The notes beneath the pieces were generated by a model. The model searched no databases. It was not told the origin of the DNA and saw only the letters and a program-made list of their open reading frames with translations. From Flectobacillus sp. (lineage in GTDB: Bacteria; Bacteroidota; Bacteroidia; Cytophagales; Spirosomataceae): a DNA stretch of 7,333 nucleotides. Made by a program: the position numbers and the translations under genes. Location of the stretch: assembly GCA_029865665.1 (NCBI GenBank), contig JARXAV010000338.1, positions 1 to 7,333 of the forward strand, in the 5' to 3' direction. Shown one piece after another: positions 268 through 7,333 of the stretch. Each line of letters begins with the position of its first letter. Positions within the stretch are counted from its first letter, which is position 1.

Positions 268-1122
268 CTAATATGCCTTTAAACTTAAATCTAAACTAGC
301 TATATGGTGTGTCAAAGCTCCACAAGAGATATAATCGACACCACATTCTGCATATTCACGAATGGTCGTTTCGTTGATTCCACCTGAGGCTTCGGTCATG
401 AATTTACCGTCAATCATGGCTACTGCTTTGCGGAGGTTTTCAAAAGAGAAGTTATCCAACATGATGCGGTTTATTTGTCCAATCGCTAATACCTCTGCCA
501 ATTCTGCTAGGTTACGGACTTCAATTTCTATTTGTAAGTCTTTGCCTGTCGTTTTCAAATAGTCATTGGCTTGTGTGATGGCATTTTTGATACCACCAGC
601 ATAATCAACATGATTATCTTTAATCAAAATCATGTCATAAAGAGCATATCGGTGATTGACCGCTCCACCAATTTTGCACGCCCATTTTTCACAAATCCGG
701 AAATTTGGCGTGGTTTTACGAGTATCTAATAGTTTGGTGTTTGTCCCTTCTAACAATTTTACCAACGATGCCGTATAGGTGGCAATTCCCGACATACGTT
801 GCATACAGTTCAATACCAAGCGTTCTGCTTTAAGAATCGACTGAGACGAACCTGCAACGGTCAATACGATTTCGCCTTTTGTAATAAACGTTCCGTCTTC
901 TAGGAGTATATCTACTGCTAAATTGGGGTCAACTTCTGCAAAAATCAGCTTGGCTAATTCGACACCAGCCAAAATTCCTGTATCTTTTACCAATAATCTT
1001 GCTCGTCCTTGAGCATCGCTCGGAATGGTTGATAGGGAAGTATGGTCGCCGTCGCCAAGGTCTTCAGCAAGTGCAGTTTGAATAAAATGATGAATGTATG
1101 ACGGCTCTAAGTAGTTGAACAT
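268..1122 (-). CDS. nadC: Nicotinate-nucleotide pyrophosphorylase (carboxylating), i.e. quinolinate phosphoribosyltransferase
   Basis: NadC is a cytoplasmic enzyme of de novo NAD synthesis. It joins quinolinate and PRPP to give nicotinate mononucleotide, CO2 and pyrophosphate. The 284-residue length is normal for the family. The N-terminal domain carries EDLGDGDHTS (20-29). The barrel carries the family blocks LNCMQRMSGIAT (104-115), LLDTRKTTPNFR (131-142), GGAVNHRYALYDMILIKDNH (152-171), EIEV (199-202), IMLDNF (220-225), EASGGI (244-249) and DYISCGALTHH (263-273). By family comparison R135/K136, H157/R158 and K168 should contact substrate phosphates and carboxylates, and E201/D223 the ribose-metal site; all are present, so the enzyme looks intact. 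The start MFNYLEPSYI is preceded by A/T-rich sequence without an SD, and the TAG stop is at 270-268. The quinolinate-producing genes nadA and nadB are not in the window. Confidence 0.97.
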   Translation of the reverse strand: MFNYLEPSYIHHFIQTALAEDLGDGDHTSLSTIPSDAQGRARLLVKDTGILAGVELAKLIFAEVDPNLAVDILLEDGTFITKGEIVLTVAGSSQSILKAERLVLNCMQRMSGIATYTASLVKLLEGTNTKLLDTRKTTPNFRICEKWACKIGGAVNHRYALYDMILIKDNHVDYAGGIKNAITQANDYLKTTGKDLQIEIEVRNLAELAEVLAIGQINRIMLDNFSFENLRKAVAMIDGKFMTEASGGINETTIREYAECGVDYISCGALTHHIASLDLSLKAY

Positions 1123-1246: not shown

Positions 1247-1278
1247 TTTGGTTTATTACCAGAAAAATTACAAATTTG
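1247..1278 (+). promoter_or_regulatory. Candidate promoter for the small exported protein (and possibly secDF)
   Basis: TTTG at 1247-1250, a 20-base spacer, and CAAATTTG at 1271-1278 match the Bacteroidota -33 TTTG / -7 TAnnTTTG pattern with one mismatch. Transcription would begin about 14 bases before the GTG at 1299, an unusually short leader. Its position in the 176-base gap opposite the nadC signal is sensible for divergent promoters. Confidence 0.35.
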
Positions 1279-1298: not shown

Positions 1299-1664
1299 GT
1301 GCATAAAAACTCTCACATAGCTCGTACTTTCAGCACATTTTTGATGTGTTTGATGCTGATGTTTACCGTTTTTGGTAAGACATTTTCAGCATCACAACGT
1401 GTTAATGCAGGAGAAAAAAACGTAAAAACAACGCAAACGGACAAGCAAAAGCAAGATCCAAGAGCGTGTTCGGTAAGTGAATTGTCTGTGATGCAGGCAT
1501 CAACACCGATTTCGGTTGATTTTTCACCTGAATTTACGTTTACTCCACAGCTAATTTCATTTGTTGCTCCAACGCTTCATTCAGAAGTAGTAAAGGAAAC
1601 GATTTATCGTCTTTCTTTCCACGAAATTCTCTTCGAGCATTTCATCGCTACCAACGCCCCGTGA
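1299..1664 (+). CDS. Small exported protein of unknown function upstream of secDF; candidate secretion monitor
   Basis: The 121-residue protein starts at GTG. An in-frame TAA lies at 1290-1292, and the next start (ATG, residue 16) would fall inside the hydrophobic core, so GTG is preferred. Residues 1-31 look like a Sec signal: basic n-region (K3, R9), core FLMCLMLMFTVFG (14-26) and a possible cleavage around FSAS (29-32). Residues 33-55 are polar and lysine/threonine-rich, a likely flexible linker. Residues 70-121 are more hydrophobic and aromatic, ending with FHEILFEHFIATNAP. The last codons are AAC-GCC-CCG followed by TGA, so a C-terminal proline abuts the stop. No mature domain is recognised. 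Small size, signal peptide, proline-terminated C-terminus and position 165 bases before secDF resemble SecM/VemP-type arrest peptides; that role is inference. It could equally be an unrelated small periplasmic protein. Confidence 0.7.
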   Translation: MHKNSHIARTFSTFLMCLMLMFTVFGKTFSASQRVNAGEKNVKTTQTDKQKQDPRACSVSELSVMQASTPISVDFSPEFTFTPQLISFVAPTLHSEVVKETIYRLSFHEILFEHFIATNAP

Positions 1665-1703
1665 TTTTTTTCTTGTAGGTTTTGGCTTTATGCTTTAACC
1701 CTC

Positions 1704-1720
1704 TATCAGTTCAACTGATA
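1704..1720 (+). repeat. Short perfect hairpin in the secDF leader
   Basis: TATCAGT (1704-1710) and ACTGATA (1714-1720) form a perfect 7-base stem around the loop TCA. No T-run follows, so it is not an intrinsic terminator. It lies 40 bases after the stop of the small exported protein and 110 bases before secDF. The A/T-rich stem is weak. Confidence 0.35.
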
Positions 1721-1762
1721 ATATCTCCTTATGTTATTGTGAAATAGCATTAAGATTTTATT

Positions 1763-1786
1763 GCCTTTGCCCTTGTTGGCGGAGGT
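1763..1786 (+). promoter_or_regulatory. Predicted RNA hairpin burying GGAGG in the secDF leader
   Basis: Positions 1763-1771 (GCCTTTGCC) can pair with 1778-1786 (GGCGGAGGT) as a 9-base RNA stem including three G-U pairs and a 6-base loop. The right arm contains GGAGG (1781-1785), but this is 44 bases from the secDF ATG and precedes no other start, so it is probably not secDF's SD. It is the most stable structure I could find by eye in the 165-base gap and may be a regulatory leader element. Folding was done by eye only. Confidence 0.35.
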
Positions 1787-1797
1787 CTTACCTAGTT

Positions 1798-1826
1798 TAA
1801 TTTTCAATTTCATCTAATTTTCAATT
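1798..1826 (+). repeat. 12-base direct repeat immediately before the secDF start
   Basis: TAATTTTCAATT occurs at 1798-1809 and again at 1815-1826, 17 bases apart start to start. The second copy ends three bases before the secDF ATG. Bacteroidota genes often have A/T-rich unstructured start regions instead of an SD, so this may be a translation-initiation region or simply A/T-rich chance similarity. Confidence 0.45.
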
Positions 1827-1829
1827 ACA

Positions 1830-4799
1830 ATGCGTTACAAAGGTGCCATTATCTGGCTGACTGGTATCATCTCAGCCTTGTGTTTATTCTTTTTATCTTT
1901 CACATGGAAAGCAAATTCAGTTCGTGAAGAGGCGGTTAATTATGCAACCGTAAACGGTAAATTTGACCCAGCAAGAAAACTTCATTTTGTTGATTCATTG
2001 TGGAAACAACCTGTTTATTTAGGGTTTACGCTACAAGAAGTAACAACGTACAGCCTTCACAAAGGGTTGGACTTAGAAGGTGGTCTTCATGCTGTATTAG
2101 AAGTTTCTCCAGTAGAAATCTTACGTGCATTATCTGCAAAAAGTAATGATCCAAACTTCGAAAAAGCATTACAAGAAGCATCTAAGGCTCAGATAACTTC
2201 TACAAAGCCTTTCAATGATTTGTTCTTTGAAGCATTTGCTCGCATTGCTCCAAAACAACCATTGGCATCTATCTTCGCTAACTCGACTAACCGTGAGAAA
2301 TTAAATTCTCAGTCGAGCGATTCTCAAGTGAAGAAAGTAATCAACGACGAAATTGATGGTGCTGTTGACCGTGTTTACAAAACGATTCAAACTCGTATTG
2401 ATAAATTAGGAGTTGCTAACCCGAACATTCAACGTTTACCAGGTACAAACCGTATTCAAGTTGAATTACCAGGGGTTGATAATCCAGATCGTGCTAGAAA
2501 AATCTTAGCTCAAGCAGCGAAATTAGAATTTATTGAAGTAGCTGAAATTAACGAATGGGGACAAGGCTTAAACACATTAGGTGAATATTTGGCAGCAGAA
2601 GAAAAAGCATCTAAATCATCTTTATCTTCATTGTCAGCTCCAGCAGCAAGTACAGATACAACGAAAAAAGACGGTGATTTAGCAGGGAAATTAGCAGGAA
2701 CTGCGAAATCAACTACAAAAGATACTGCGAAGAAAGATACAAAAGATACAACAGCAGGTGCGGCTTTAACGAAATTGTTCTTGCCATTGGATAACCAAGG
2801 AAGAACTTGGGGTGTATTCCGTAAAGATACTGCTCGTGTAAATGAATTATTCCGTCGTCCAGAAGTACGTATGATGTTCCCAGCAAACATCACATTCCAC
2901 TGGTATGCGATTGGTATTCCTGCTAAAAACGGAGACGAAATCATTCAATTAGAAGCATTAAGACAAATTGAAGGACAAGTAGCTCCATTGACAGGTGAAG
3001 TAATTACAGATGCTGCTCAGGATTTTGATCAAAATGGTCGTCCAGAAGTGACAATGGCAATGAACGGAACAGGTGCTAGAATCTGGAAAAATATGACTGC
3101 TGCAAACGTTGGAAAACGTATTGCAATTGTATTGGATGGATATGTTTATTCTGCACCAAACATCAATGGTGAAATTGCAGGTGGTCGTTCTTCTATCTCA
3201 GGTTCATTTACAGTTGAGCAAGCAAAAGATTTAGCAAACGTATTGAAATCAGGTAAATTATCTGCTCCAACTCGTATTGTGGAAGATGCTTTCGTTGGTC
3301 CATCATTAGGTCAAGAAGCAATCAACCAAGGCTATATGTCAATGTTATTAGGTTTATTGTTAGTAGTAGTCTTTATGATTGGATACTATGGTAATCCAGG
3401 TTGGATGGCAAATGCTGCCCTTTTGTTCAACGTATTCTTTATTGCAGGGGTATTAGTTCAAATGCAAGCGGTATTGACATTACCAGGTATTGCTGGGGTT
3501 GTATTAACATTGGGTATGGCGGTCGATGCCAACGTATTGATTAACGAACGTATCCGTGAAGAATTACACAAAGGAATGGGCTTATTGGAAGCAATCAAAA
3601 TTGGTTATGAAAAAGCCCTTTCTGCGATTATTGATGGTAACGTTACAACAATCTTGATTGGTATTATCTTGATTATCTTCGGTTCTGGTTCTGTAAAAGG
3701 TTTCGGTGTTACGCTTTGTATTGGTTTGGTTACTTCGGTATTCACATCGGTATATGTGTCGCACATCTTTGTTGACTGGATGGCGAAACGTGCTATTGCA
3801 GCAGGAAAAGAGAAATCAGTAACGTTTGAAACATTTATCTCGAAAGATTTATTCAAGAATTCAAACTTTGACTTTATCGGAAAACGTAAATATTCATATA
3901 TTTTCTCTTGGGGTTTAATCGCTCTTGGTGCAATTGTATTGACAATCCAAGGTGGTTTCAACTTAGGTGTTGACTTCAAAGGTGGTCGTTCGTATGTAGT
4001 TGAGTTTGCAAAAACAACCGATGCTGCAACCGTGAAGGATGCCTTGAAAGATTCATTCGGTGGAAAAGGTGTTGAAGTAAAAACATTCAACGGAGATAAA
4101 ATGAAAGTGACTACATCTTACTTAGTTGAAGATGAAAGTACACAAGCTAACCAAACGGTTCGTAAAGCATTAGAGTCAGGTTTATCTAAATTAGCAGATG
4201 CGAAACCAGTGATTCAGTCAGAATCGAAAGTAGGAGCAACCATTGCCGATGATATTTTGACGCAATCATTCTTATCAATTGTCTATGCACTAATTGCAAT
4301 CTTTATCTATATCTTAATTCGTTTCCGTAAGTGGCAATATTCATTGGGTGGTATTATCGCCCTAGTTCACGATGCGTTAGTTGTATTAGGAATGGTTGGT
4401 ATTGCTCGTATCTTCGGATTAGAGTTAGAAGTTGACCAAGTATTTATTGCAGCGGTATTGACCGTAATTGGTTATTCAATTAACGATACCGTGGTAGTAT
4501 TTGACCGTATTCGTGAAGAAATCGGTTTAGATGCTGACTTAAACGATAAGGAGTTGATGATTAAAACAATCAACCAATCAATTAACCACACGATGAGCCG
4601 TACCGTAATGACAGCAACTACTGTATTCTTAGTAGTAACTGTGTTGTTGTTATTTGGTGGAGACGTATTAAGAGGTTTCTCTTTTGCGATGTTCATTGGG
4701 GTTGTGTTTGGTGCATATTCATCTATCTTCGTAGCAACGCCAATTGTAATTGACTTTGCAACAGGTAAAAAGAAGGCAGTAGAACCAGCAAAACAATAA
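1830..4799 (+). CDS. secDF: Fused protein translocase subunit SecDF
   Basis: SecDF sits in the inner membrane with SecYEG and uses the proton gradient to pull exported proteins outward after SecA-driven translocation. Here SecD and SecF are one 989-residue chain. SecD half: TM1 at 7-24, KGLDLEGG (78-85), a large P1 region, then TM2-TM6 over about 503-648 with GMAVDANVLINERIREE (562-578). SecF half: TM7 at about 689-706, NLGVDFKGG (711-719), the smaller P4 domain, then TM8-TM12 over about 812-975 with GYSINDTVVVFDRIREE (881-897) and SRT (923-925). By comparison with Thermus SecDF, D566, D886 and R924 should be the proton-pathway residues; all are present. P1 contains a Lys/Thr/Ala/Ser-rich insert at about 256-313. 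Start MRYKGAIIW puts TM1 at the N-terminus as expected, without an SD. The small exported protein upstream may belong to the same transcript. Confidence 0.97.
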   Translation: MRYKGAIIWLTGIISALCLFFLSFTWKANSVREEAVNYATVNGKFDPARKLHFVDSLWKQPVYLGFTLQEVTTYSLHKGLDLEGGLHAVLEVSPVEILRALSAKSNDPNFEKALQEASKAQITSTKPFNDLFFEAFARIAPKQPLASIFANSTNREKLNSQSSDSQVKKVINDEIDGAVDRVYKTIQTRIDKLGVANPNIQRLPGTNRIQVELPGVDNPDRARKILAQAAKLEFIEVAEINEWGQGLNTLGEYLAAEEKASKSSLSSLSAPAASTDTTKKDGDLAGKLAGTAKSTTKDTAKKDTKDTTAGAALTKLFLPLDNQGRTWGVFRKDTARVNELFRRPEVRMMFPANITFHWYAIGIPAKNGDEIIQLEALRQIEGQVAPLTGEVITDAAQDFDQNGRPEVTMAMNGTGARIWKNMTAANVGKRIAIVLDGYVYSAPNINGEIAGGRSSISGSFTVEQAKDLANVLKSGKLSAPTRIVEDAFVGPSLGQEAINQGYMSMLLGLLLVVVFMIGYYGNPGWMANAALLFNVFFIAGVLVQMQAVLTLPGIAGVVLTLGMAVDANVLINERIREELHKGMGLLEAIKIGYEKALSAIIDGNVTTILIGIILIIFGSGSVKGFGVTLCIGLVTSVFTSVYVSHIFVDWMAKRAIAAGKEKSVTFETFISKDLFKNSNFDFIGKRKYSYIFSWGLIALGAIVLTIQGGFNLGVDFKGGRSYVVEFAKTTDAATVKDALKDSFGGKGVEVKTFNGDKMKVTTSYLVEDESTQANQTVRKALESGLSKLADAKPVIQSESKVGATIADDILTQSFLSIVYALIAIFIYILIRFRKWQYSLGGIIALVHDALVVLGMVGIARIFGLELEVDQVFIAAVLTVIGYSINDTVVVFDRIREEIGLDADLNDKELMIKTINQSINHTMSRTVMTATTVFLVVTVLLLFGGDVLRGFSFAMFIGVVFGAYSSIFVATPIVIDFATGKKKAVEPAKQ

Positions 4800-4988: not shown

Positions 4989-6443
4989 ATGGCAAACATT
5001 TGGGCTAAAAAGTCGCTAACACAATTAATGGATGATGCCACCGCAGAGAAAGGTGGTCTAAAGCGAAGTCTTGGGCGAATGAATCTCTTGATGATGGGTA
5101 TCGGGGGAATTATTGGTGCGGGTATCTTCGCTCTTTCGGGTACTGCTGCTGCTAACTACGCAGGACCAGCGGTAACGTTCTCGTTCATTTTGGCAGGGGT
5201 TGCCTGTGCTTTTGCAGGCTTATGCTATGCCGAACTAGCGTCTATGATTCCAATTGCAGGTAGTGCTTATACGTATGCGTATGCAACAATGGGAGAATTT
5301 ATCGCTTGGATTATTGGTTGGGATTTAATCTTAGAATACCTTTTTGCTTGCTCAACCGTTGCTGTGGGTTGGAGTGGTTATATGATAAGTTTCTTGGATA
5401 AATTCTTAGGAATACAAATTCCTTCGTACTTAGCAGAAGCTCCAATTAAATACGATACCCTTACGGGTGACTGGACTTCAACAGGAGCATTTATTAACCT
5501 TCCTGCTGTATTGGTTATTGCTATCATCTCAGCTATTCTTTACCGTGGAGTACAAGCATCAGCGACTGTGAATAACGTGATTGTAGCGATCAAAATCACG
5601 GTGATTGCCTTGTTCATCTTGTTTGGTTTTAAATTTATCAACATGGATAACTTGACTCCATATATTCCTGATAACTCGGGCGTTTGGGGTAAATTCGGTT
5701 GGTCTGGTGTCTTCCGTGCTTCGGGAGTAATTTTCTTCTCATACATTGGTTTTGACTCCGTTTCAACTGCCGCTCAAGAAGCAAAGAATCCACAAAAAGA
5801 TATGCCATTCGCTATCTTAGGCTCGTTATTAATCTGTACGGTTATCTACATCATTTTCGCAACCGTAATGACGGGTATGGTAAGCTACAAAGACTTAAAC
5901 GTTTCAGCTCCAGTAGCAGTAGCAATCGACGCAGCAGGCGATTCATTAACATGGTTGAGTCCATTAGTTAAAATTGGTGCAATTGCAGGATTAAGTTCAG
6001 TAATCTTGATTATGGCATTGGCTCAATCTCGTATTTTCTTCACGATGTCTCACGATGGACTTCTTCCAAAATTCTTTGGTAAAGTTCACTCAAAATACAA
6101 AACTCCATACCTTTCTACGGTAGTAACAGGCGTAATGGCAGCCCTAATTGGTGGGGTATTCCCGATTGATTTATTAGGAGAATTAGTATCTATCGGTACG
6201 TTGTTCGCTTTTGCGGTTGTATGTTTGGGTGTATTATTCTTACGTTACAAACAACCAGAGTTAAAACGTCCGTTTAAAGCTCCTTTCTTCCCAGTAGTTC
6301 CTATCTTAGGCGTATTGAGTGCAGTAGGCGTAATGTCATTCTTACCAGGCGATACATGGATTCGTTTATTCGTATGGATGGCTTTAGGTTTATTGATTTA
6401 CTATTTCTACGGAAAGAAAAACAGTAAAGTTGGAAACGAATAA
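4989..6443 (+). CDS. APC-superfamily amino-acid permease, cationic amino-acid transporter-like
   Basis: This 484-residue inner-membrane protein has about 12 hydrophobic segments and is a secondary transporter of the amino acid-polyamine-organocation superfamily. A cytoplasmic N-terminus (KKSLTQLMDD, GGLKRSLGRMN) precedes TM1 with GIGGIIGAGIF (37-47), the unwound helix that binds the substrate carboxylate. TM2-TM3 carry CYAELASMIPIAGSAYTYAY (79-98). TM6 carries FFSYIGFDS (249-257), followed by QEAKNPQKDMP (263-273), and the loop after TM8 carries SRIFFTMSHDGLLPKFF (347-363). These fit the CAT/YfnA-like branch best. Exact substrate cannot be read from sequence. The gene stands alone between two terminators, so it is probably monocistronic; no convincing promoter was found in 4854-4988. 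The start MANIWAKK has no SD. The permease lacks the extra C-terminal membrane segments of the 14-TM eukaryotic CATs. Confidence 0.93.
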   Translation: MANIWAKKSLTQLMDDATAEKGGLKRSLGRMNLLMMGIGGIIGAGIFALSGTAAANYAGPAVTFSFILAGVACAFAGLCYAELASMIPIAGSAYTYAYATMGEFIAWIIGWDLILEYLFACSTVAVGWSGYMISFLDKFLGIQIPSYLAEAPIKYDTLTGDWTSTGAFINLPAVLVIAIISAILYRGVQASATVNNVIVAIKITVIALFILFGFKFINMDNLTPYIPDNSGVWGKFGWSGVFRASGVIFFSYIGFDSVSTAAQEAKNPQKDMPFAILGSLLICTVIYIIFATVMTGMVSYKDLNVSAPVAVAIDAAGDSLTWLSPLVKIGAIAGLSSVILIMALAQSRIFFTMSHDGLLPKFFGKVHSKYKTPYLSTVVTGVMAALIGGVFPIDLLGELVSIGTLFAFAVVCLGVLFLRYKQPELKRPFKAPFFPVVPILGVLSAVGVMSFLPGDTWIRLFVWMALGLLIYYFYGKKNSKVGNE

Positions 6444-6473: not shown

Positions 6474-6502
6474 AAGGATGCCCCATGGGGTATCCTTTTT
6501 TT
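6474..6502 (+). terminator. Intrinsic terminator of the permease gene
   Basis: AAGGATGCCC (6474-6483) pairs with GGGTATCCTT (6488-6497), including one G-U pair, around the loop CATG, and runs into seven T at 6496-6502. It starts 31 bases after the permease stop, as expected for a single-gene transcript end. Confidence 0.93.
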
Positions 6503-6503
6503 G

Positions 6504-6551
6504 TTTTTTCCCTTTAACAGGCGACTGAAGTCACCTGCTAAAGGGAAAAAA
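6504..6551. repeat. Long imperfect palindrome, copy A of a dispersed palindrome pair
   Basis: Two 22-base arms (6504-6525 and 6530-6551) flank the loop TGAA with only two mismatches. The core is GGCGAC-TGAA-GTCACC, extended outward by CCCTTT/AAAGGG and T6/A6. Both mismatches are C opposite A on the plus strand, so in leftward RNA they become G-U pairs and the whole stem can pair. It directly follows the permease terminator. The core matches the palindrome at 6645-6672 in opposite orientation, suggesting a REP-like family. Confidence 0.8.
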
Positions 6552-6635
6552 TCAATCAAGTTTTGAGTCGAAAGATTAATGTATTTATGAAAGTATCAAG
6601 GATATAATTTTCCATTTGGAATGTCTTTGAGGTTA

Positions 6636-6678
6636 GGCTTCTACTTAGCCAGCGACTTCAGTCGCTGGCTAACAAGCC
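6636..6678. repeat. Palindrome, copy B of the dispersed palindrome pair, inverted relative to copy A
   Basis: A perfect 12-base stem (6645-6656 with 6661-6672; TTAGCCAGCGAC and its complement) closes the loop TTCA. After a small internal bulge, GGCTT (6636-6640) pairs with AAGCC (6674-6678) to lengthen it. The loop TTCA is the complement of TGAA in copy A, so the two copies point in opposite directions. No T-run follows, so it is not a terminator. Confidence 0.82.
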
Positions 6679-6893: not shown

Positions 6894-7333
6894 ATGACTA
6901 TACAAGAAGAAATACACAAACGCCGTACCTTCGGCATTATCTCTCACCCCGATGCTGGGAAAACTACCTTGACCGAAAAACTCTTGCTTTTTGGGGGGGC
7001 TATCCAAACGGCGGGTGCGGTGAAATCTAACAAAATCAAAAAGGGAGCAACTTCCGATTTTATGGAAATTGAACGCCAAAGAGGTATCTCGGTAGCAACT
7101 TCCGTGATGACGTTAGAATATAACAATGTCTTAATCAATATCTTGGATACGCCTGGTCACAAAGACTTTGCGGAGGATACTTATCGTACGCTTACTGCTG
7201 TTGACTCAGTTATCTTGGTAATTGACTGTGTGAAAGGGGTAGAGGAACAAACCGAACGTTTGATGGAGGTTTGTCGTATGCGTAATACGCCTGTAATCAT
7301 CTTTATCAACAAAATGGATAGAGAGGGGCAAAA
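6894..7333 (+). CDS. prfC: Peptide chain release factor 3, N-terminal part (runs off right edge)
   Basis: The frame opens with ATG at 6894 and stays open for 146 codons plus two bases to the edge. It encodes the G domain of a translational GTPase: G1 [10 protein letters not shown] (17-26), switch I region [15 protein letters not shown] (58-72), G3 DTPGHKDF (85-92) followed by [12 protein letters not shown] (93-104), and G4 NKMD (139-142). SHPDAGKT in G1 and the [13 protein letters not shown] block point to release factor 3 rather than EF-G, EF-Tu or LepA. RF3 is cytoplasmic and recycles RF1/RF2 from ribosomes after stop-codon release. The full protein is normally about 530 residues, so roughly the first quarter is visible. 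ATT-ATG follows a G/C-rich repeat that offers AGGGGG as an SD-like site. No in-frame start further in would keep G1 intact. Confidence 0.95.

Follow-up and report, generated by a model that had tools for sequence, protein, structure and literature searches.

A putative export-monitoring arrest peptide of the uDF_NAP-stop type encoded upstream of secDF in Flectobacillus sp.

The 7,333-nt stretch of Flectobacillus sp. DNA analysed in this study (the window) contains a short open reading frame (ORF) directly upstream of secDF. This ORF is likely a member of the uDF_NAP-stop arrest peptides, which would report on protein export through ribosome arrest and raise the translation of secDF when export is poor. 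The encoded peptide is real and strongly conserved, but its type is for the most part not new, having been described in 2024. The additions made here are the universality of the ORF among the examined regions of one family, a clade with TLAP endings, promoter-like sites in front of the ORF and an excess of CCC as terminal proline codon. The following features were assigned in the window:

268–1122, minus strand: nadC
1247–1278, plus strand: promoter-like site TTTG-N20-CAAATTTG, with one mismatch to the Bacteroidota promoter consensus
1299–1664, plus strand: ORF of 121 aa upstream of secDF, starting with GTG and ending in UGA, assigned to uDF_NAP-stop
1329–1373, plus strand: codons for residues 11–25, the hydrophobic core of the export signal at the N-terminus (Kyte-Doolittle window and alignment A1)
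1623–1664, plus strand: conserved C-terminal segment EILFEHFIATNAP and stop codon, assigned by conservation; putative site of arrest, judged from the peptides described in PMC10987492
1653–1666, plus strand: predicted 5' arm comprising the NAP-UGA codons (1653–1657 with 1832–1836; 1661–1666 with 1823–1828)
1665–1829, plus strand: leader of 165 nt between ORF and secDF, more structured than shuffled sequences
1823–1836, plus strand: 3' arm from fold prediction, overlapping the secDF start codon (1830–1832)
1830–4799, plus strand: secDF, fused SecD-SecF translocase subunit of 989 aa, presumed regulated gene
4989–6443: amino-acid permease gene
6894–7333: prfC (release factor 3), of which only the start lies in the window

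The initial annotation had described a 121-codon, signal-bearing gene with a NAP-UGA end, located upstream of and co-directional with secDF, and a 165-base leader with hairpins. Both were recovered as described: the last codons AAC GCC CCG are followed by TGA, and the leader contains a perfect 8-bp inverted repeat at 1704–1720. The most hydrophobic 15-residue stretch of the product begins at residue 11 with a mean Kyte-Doolittle value of 2.19, and 95 residues separate this core from the C-terminal end, the distance set for uDF_NAP-stop being more than 30. No Pfam match at E ≤ 1 and no NCBIfam match at E ≤ 0.01 were obtained for the 121-aa product; the SecDF of the window matched NCBIfam NF009585 with 1176.8 bits (cut-off 1037). 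The closest genome was that of a Flectobacillus MAG, with 98% identity in the upstream ORF and 99.3% in nadC, and the window belongs to the phylum Bacteroidota, as does the published type.

Two further observations concern the distal part of the window. The start of prfC lies two genes downstream of the putative termination-arrest ORF; as no prfC was detected in the flanking sequences of loci L001–L010, which are of limited reach, its proximity to the ORF is probably a coincidence. REP-like palindromes at 6645–6672 and 6495–6560 have the common core GCGACTTCAGTCGC or a near form of it, and the exact core occurs seven times in the closest genome (G001) compared to zero occurrences of a reversed control.

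Database searches with the 121-aa product retrieved 56 homologues at E ≤ 1, all of them at 2.2e-15 or better. The C-terminal end was NAP in 54 and SAP in one (P0026); another one (P0052) goes on past NAP with a tryptophan, perhaps reflecting a UGA that was taken as Trp by the gene caller. A systematic survey for SecDF covered 150 genomes from the GTDB family to which Arcicella aurantiaca (G002) belongs, 147 of them with a match. The resulting family set comprised 149 secDF upstream regions from 146 genomes, including loci L011–L040; left out were the genome G022, whose match started only at residue 135, and any additional SecDF match in a genome that was counted and not listed. A proline-ending ORF was located within 500 nt of secDF in all 149 regions, with 130 NAP, 17 LAP and 2 NGP endings, a choice that favoured proline-ending candidates and yielded none other than these three endings. 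This presence in every family region led us to reject a chance ORF. In the genomes with two secDF copies (G010, G014 and G032), the ORF precedes each copy (L016/L072, L024/L071 and L125/L133).

At the level of the order, a profile of the window's close relatives gave 44 matches in 43 of 241 genomes at E ≤ 0.01. Among the 30 loci examined from these 44 matches, secDF was always directly downstream of the ORF, and the same held for 10 of 10 loci of another homologue set. One order-level match (G205), located in a frame of 764 aa, is probably spurious. The class-level sample consisted of 60 of the 104 genomes with a SecDF match, picked for a match starting near the N-terminus. Twelve of these 60 regions contained a proline-ending ORF; six were judged by eye to be of this type, with the endings NAP, LAP, QAP (three) and KGP, and six were set aside. 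The tblastn linkage line for this sample (0/60) is uninformative, since the stretches contain only about 60 nt of secDF. Recurrence upstream of secDF, proposed in the initial annotation as a check, was borne out throughout the family and in only 6 of the 60 class-level regions: among the regions examined, the ORF is universal in the family and patchy outside of it. In more distant Bacteroidota, the loci L190, L194 and L239 end in QAP, L193 in KGP and L197 in LAP, and this variation of residue -3 suggests a wider putative x-A/G-P-stop class.

The conservation of the product is concentrated at its end. In alignment A1, composed of 27 homologues and the window, the C-terminal segment was near-invariant, as was part of the signal with the motif MFT.FGKTFSAS, and residues ~82–106 drifted. 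The 143 unique family sequences have proline at position -1 without exception, alanine at -2 in 141, asparagine at -3 in 127, isoleucine at -6 in 141 and phenylalanine at -10 in 126; residue -3 is leucine in 16. As many as 34 different 9-mers code for the last three residues of the family ORFs, which indicates that the peptide, rather than the DNA, is conserved. All family ORFs but one (148 of 149) had a hydrophobic window of at least 1.6, the remaining region being truncated by a contig end, and the distance from this core to the C-terminus had a median of 97 residues (5–95%: 87–105). A clade of small genomes (L025–L040 and L187; n = 17) carries the endings FIATLAP or YI.TLAP, and in 11 of the 17 members of this TLAP-UGA clade the leader is 55–60 nt long. 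Among the outcomes that, according to the initial annotation, would speak against it were orthologues without linkage to secDF and orthologues with divergent C-terminal residues. Neither was encountered: secDF linkage held in family (149/149), order (30/30) and additional set (10/10), and the C-terminal residues are conserved (P(-1) in 143/143, NAP in 130/149).

Peptides of this kind have already been defined in Bacteroidota as uDF_NAP-stop arrest peptides, with 396 sequences from 400 genomes, mainly of three Bacteroidota orders, and six published sequence clusters (Fujiwara et al. 2024, PMC10987492). Peptidyl-tRNA of uDF_NAP-stop amounted to 30–50% in the E. coli PURE system and to more than 50% in the B. 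subtilis PURE system; the arrest depended on residues -3 and -1, was lost when the stop was replaced by a fusion, and was mapped by toeprinting with the stop codon in the A site (PMC10987492). The claim that the type had not been described for this phylum was thus wrong. A full-text literature search for NAP-stop together with arrest peptide returned PMC10987492 alone, and further searches added no publication on the type. Better founded was the idea of an arrest-peptide-like secretion monitor stalling at NAP-stop, which agrees with the conserved C-terminus and with the published arrest of one family representative, the A site being occupied by the stop codon (PMC10987492); the mechanism put forward at that time is probably right up to the arrest. 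By its sequence, the ORF agrees with uDF_NAP-stop in each feature examined and is assigned to it, with ribosome arrest presumed from the family representative.

According to the proposed mechanism, the N-terminal signal of the ORF product would bring the nascent chain to the Sec machinery, the ribosome would arrest at NAP-stop with the stop codon in its A site, and a functional export machinery would release the ribosome by pulling on the chain. With poor export, the ribosome would remain on the end of the ORF. In the window, the parked ribosome would cover NAP-UGA codons for which pairing with the secDF start is predicted in its absence, and more secDF would be translated. For the window's own ORF we infer such an arrest, its Sec-dependent release and the control of secDF.

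RNA folding was used to assess the last step. The end of the ORF, the leader and the secDF start together had a predicted folding energy of -55.6 kcal/mol compared to -45.1 ± 3.3 kcal/mol for 400 dinucleotide shuffles of the leader, none of which was as stable. The pair probabilities predicted for the NAP-UGA codons with the secDF start of the window were 0.73–0.99, so that a stalled ribosome would disrupt this helix. Pairing of the window's start region into the footprint of the stalled ribosome reached 0.338 versus 0.082 ± 0.109 in the shuffles, 4.5% of 400 being as high. A predicted footprint/start pairing above 0.3 was found in 6 of 20, 0 of 17 and 5 of 113 members of three groups (A, B and C) set by SecDF similarity and ORF ending, and two of the six in the group of 20 (the window and L012) are near-identical. 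Over 149 leaders, the secDF start was more accessible than in shuffles (0.526 vs 0.472), and masking of the stalled footprint changed its accessibility by 0.007 compared to 0.001 in shuffles (p 0.67). Changes above 0.15 occurred in 9 of 150 versus 23 of 1500 shuffles, an enrichment in the tail only. Pairing of the 40 nt that follow the stop codon with the 45 nt that precede the secDF start was, for the window, no better than in swaps between species (rank 0.42), and for the most part this also held across the family. On the basis of these accessibility, swap and pairing tests, we rejected a leader that sequesters the secDF start throughout the family, and the predicted start-exposure step is a weak part of the mechanism. 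Long complementarity between post-stop and pre-secDF sequences was seen in L038, L094, L112, L120 and L105 and is absent in the window. Organisms of this kind are mostly devoid of Shine-Dalgarno-led initiation, so the usual step of freeing the Shine-Dalgarno sequence needs rethinking.

The organization of transcription was approached through the Bacteroidota promoter consensus TTTG-N18-22-TAnnTTTG. An exact TTTG-N17-23-TANNTTTG had no match anywhere in the window. Sites with one mismatch were present within 120 nt upstream of the ORF in 78 of 148 regions versus 5 of 148 shuffles, and in the leader in 12 of 148 regions versus 9 of 148 shuffles, the control being one mononucleotide shuffle per region. 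As promoter-like sites are found ahead of the ORF but not within the leader, ORF and secDF are probably on one transcript. Neither an intrinsic terminator in 1120–1900 nor an Rfam element at E ≤ 1 in 1100–1900 was detected.

The arrest could alternatively act on transcription, where the lack of an intrinsic terminator leaves only Rho: a ribosome parked at the stop would shield the leader from Rho in a TnaC-like manner, and without arrest Rho would terminate before secDF. The leader is structured, and RNA structure should disfavour Rho loading. The geometry in TnaC is nevertheless the same, with proline in the P site, the stop codon in the A site and a Rho site just downstream (PMC8429421), and the missing family-wide support for exposure of the start counts in favour of Rho as well. 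On balance, Rho-dependent control appears unlikely, and translational control of secDF by the arrested ribosome is preferred.

Less probable still is a peptide that arrests but responds to something other than export capacity, such as a ligand or the status of the proton gradient, its link to secDF reflecting a need for SecDF under that condition. Such a sensor has a precedent in the Pro-stop termination arrest of TnaC, which is ligand-dependent (PMC8429421), and no Sec-dependent release is described for uDF_NAP-stop in the available text of PMC10987492 and PMC13183943. The induction of a downstream gene in PMC10987492 was shown for another peptide, not NAP-stop, and a paper from 2026 presents Sec or YidC monitoring by newer arrest peptides as not yet demonstrated (PMC13183943). 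Yet arrest occurred in PURE systems without added ligand (PMC10987492), and the signal sequence and the fixed spacer fit the sensing of export. An ordinary small exported protein with a C-terminal tail that functions in the periplasm, without any arrest, would account for the secreted-protein architecture and for the conserved residues in and after the signal, but is highly improbable, as conservation peaks at the last residues and stops exactly at the stop codon, the terminal proline is invariant, linkage of the ORF to secDF held in every check and a uDF_NAP-stop representative arrests in vitro (PMC10987492).

The export-monitoring arrest peptide, as the preferred reading, does not depend on one particular stop codon. 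The 149 family ORFs end in TGA (71), TAG (42) or TAA (36), and UGA, which the initial annotation had overemphasized, was rejected as a requirement; it is favoured in the window's clade, with TGA in 13 of 19 unique ORFs versus 0 of 13 secDF stops. The LAP clade has TGA in 16 of 16 ORFs versus 0 of 16 secDF stops. ORFs of at least 250 codons in the window and L001–L010, spurious long frames included, end in TAA (24), TAG (13) and TGA (5).

The terminal proline codon was CCC in 79 of 143 ORFs compared to 244 of 996 internal proline codons of the same ORFs. The secDF genes of the window's clade use CCA for 218 and CCC for 14 of 394 prolines, versus one CCA (binomial 5e-6) and seven CCC (binomial 2e-6) among 19 terminal codons; the window's own terminal codon (1659–1661) is CCG, not CCC. 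In a test on thinned sequence sets, the terminal codon was drawn 20,000 times from the proline codons of each ORF. With sequences thinned to <80, <70 and <60% identity, CCC was terminal in 49 of 83, 29 of 56 and 23 of 38 versus 24.1, 15.4 and 10.8 expected, an excess reached by none of the 20,000 draws at any thinning, with identity thinning as the only guard in codon and stop counts that carry no tree correction. The neighbouring alanine codon exhibited only a small excess of GCC (25 vs 23.3, 21 vs 16.1 and 14 vs 10.7). We tentatively propose that the terminal proline may be under selection for CCC (GGG anticodon) and away from CCA, the arrest possibly being tuned by the tRNA(Pro) isoacceptor in addition to the peptide, and that TLAP may be a second arrest sequence which dispenses with the asparagine that matters in vitro. 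The main text of PMC10987492 contains none of the terms promoter, codon usage, synonymous and CCC. Frameshifting at CCC-U from the stop to secDF was rejected: the median length of open +1 frames was 10 codons, equal to that of the other frame, and those open +1 frames that reach secDF, 10 in number, mostly belong to short leaders.

For secDF in at least one family of the Bacteroidota, feedback control of the export machinery through a peptide that arrests its own ribosome is probably usual rather than exceptional. How termination arrest works could be tested directly and cheaply with the TLAP clade and with the excess of CCC at the last proline codon.

SecM, VemP and MifM are secreted or membrane-targeted nascent chains whose arrest controls a downstream Sec or YidC gene. 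They share this logic with the ORF and differ in elongation arrest, other motifs and other lineages. SecM is encoded upstream of secA and has the motif FxxxxWIxxxxGIRAGP with a RAGP ending (PMC10987492), whereas the gene downstream of the ORF is secDF and this motif is absent from the 121-aa product; the C-terminus HFIATNAP likewise differs from the RAPP/RQH peptides. CliM of Clostridia resembles the ORF in being able to arrest termination, the release factor being bound and not accommodated, and differs in its position upstream of yidC, its KYxIW motif and its insertion into the membrane (PMC13183943). TnaC has in common with the ORF a termination arrest with proline in the P site and the stop codon in the A site; unlike the ORF, with its 121 aa, signal and downstream secDF, it has 24 residues and no export signal, depends on tryptophan and controls tnaAB through Rho (PMC8429421). 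The uA_NSP-stop peptides are also from Bacteroidota and have a terminal proline and the stop codon in the A site, but they are located upstream of secA, occur in Sphingobacteriaceae and end in NSP (PMC10987492). The endings LAP, NGP, QAP and KGP observed here are without mention for uDF_NAP-stop in the available text of PMC10987492. Between uDF_NAP-stop and the ORF of the window itself no difference was found; they are alike in the position upstream of secDF, the N-terminal signal, the spacer of ~97 residues and the NAP-stop.
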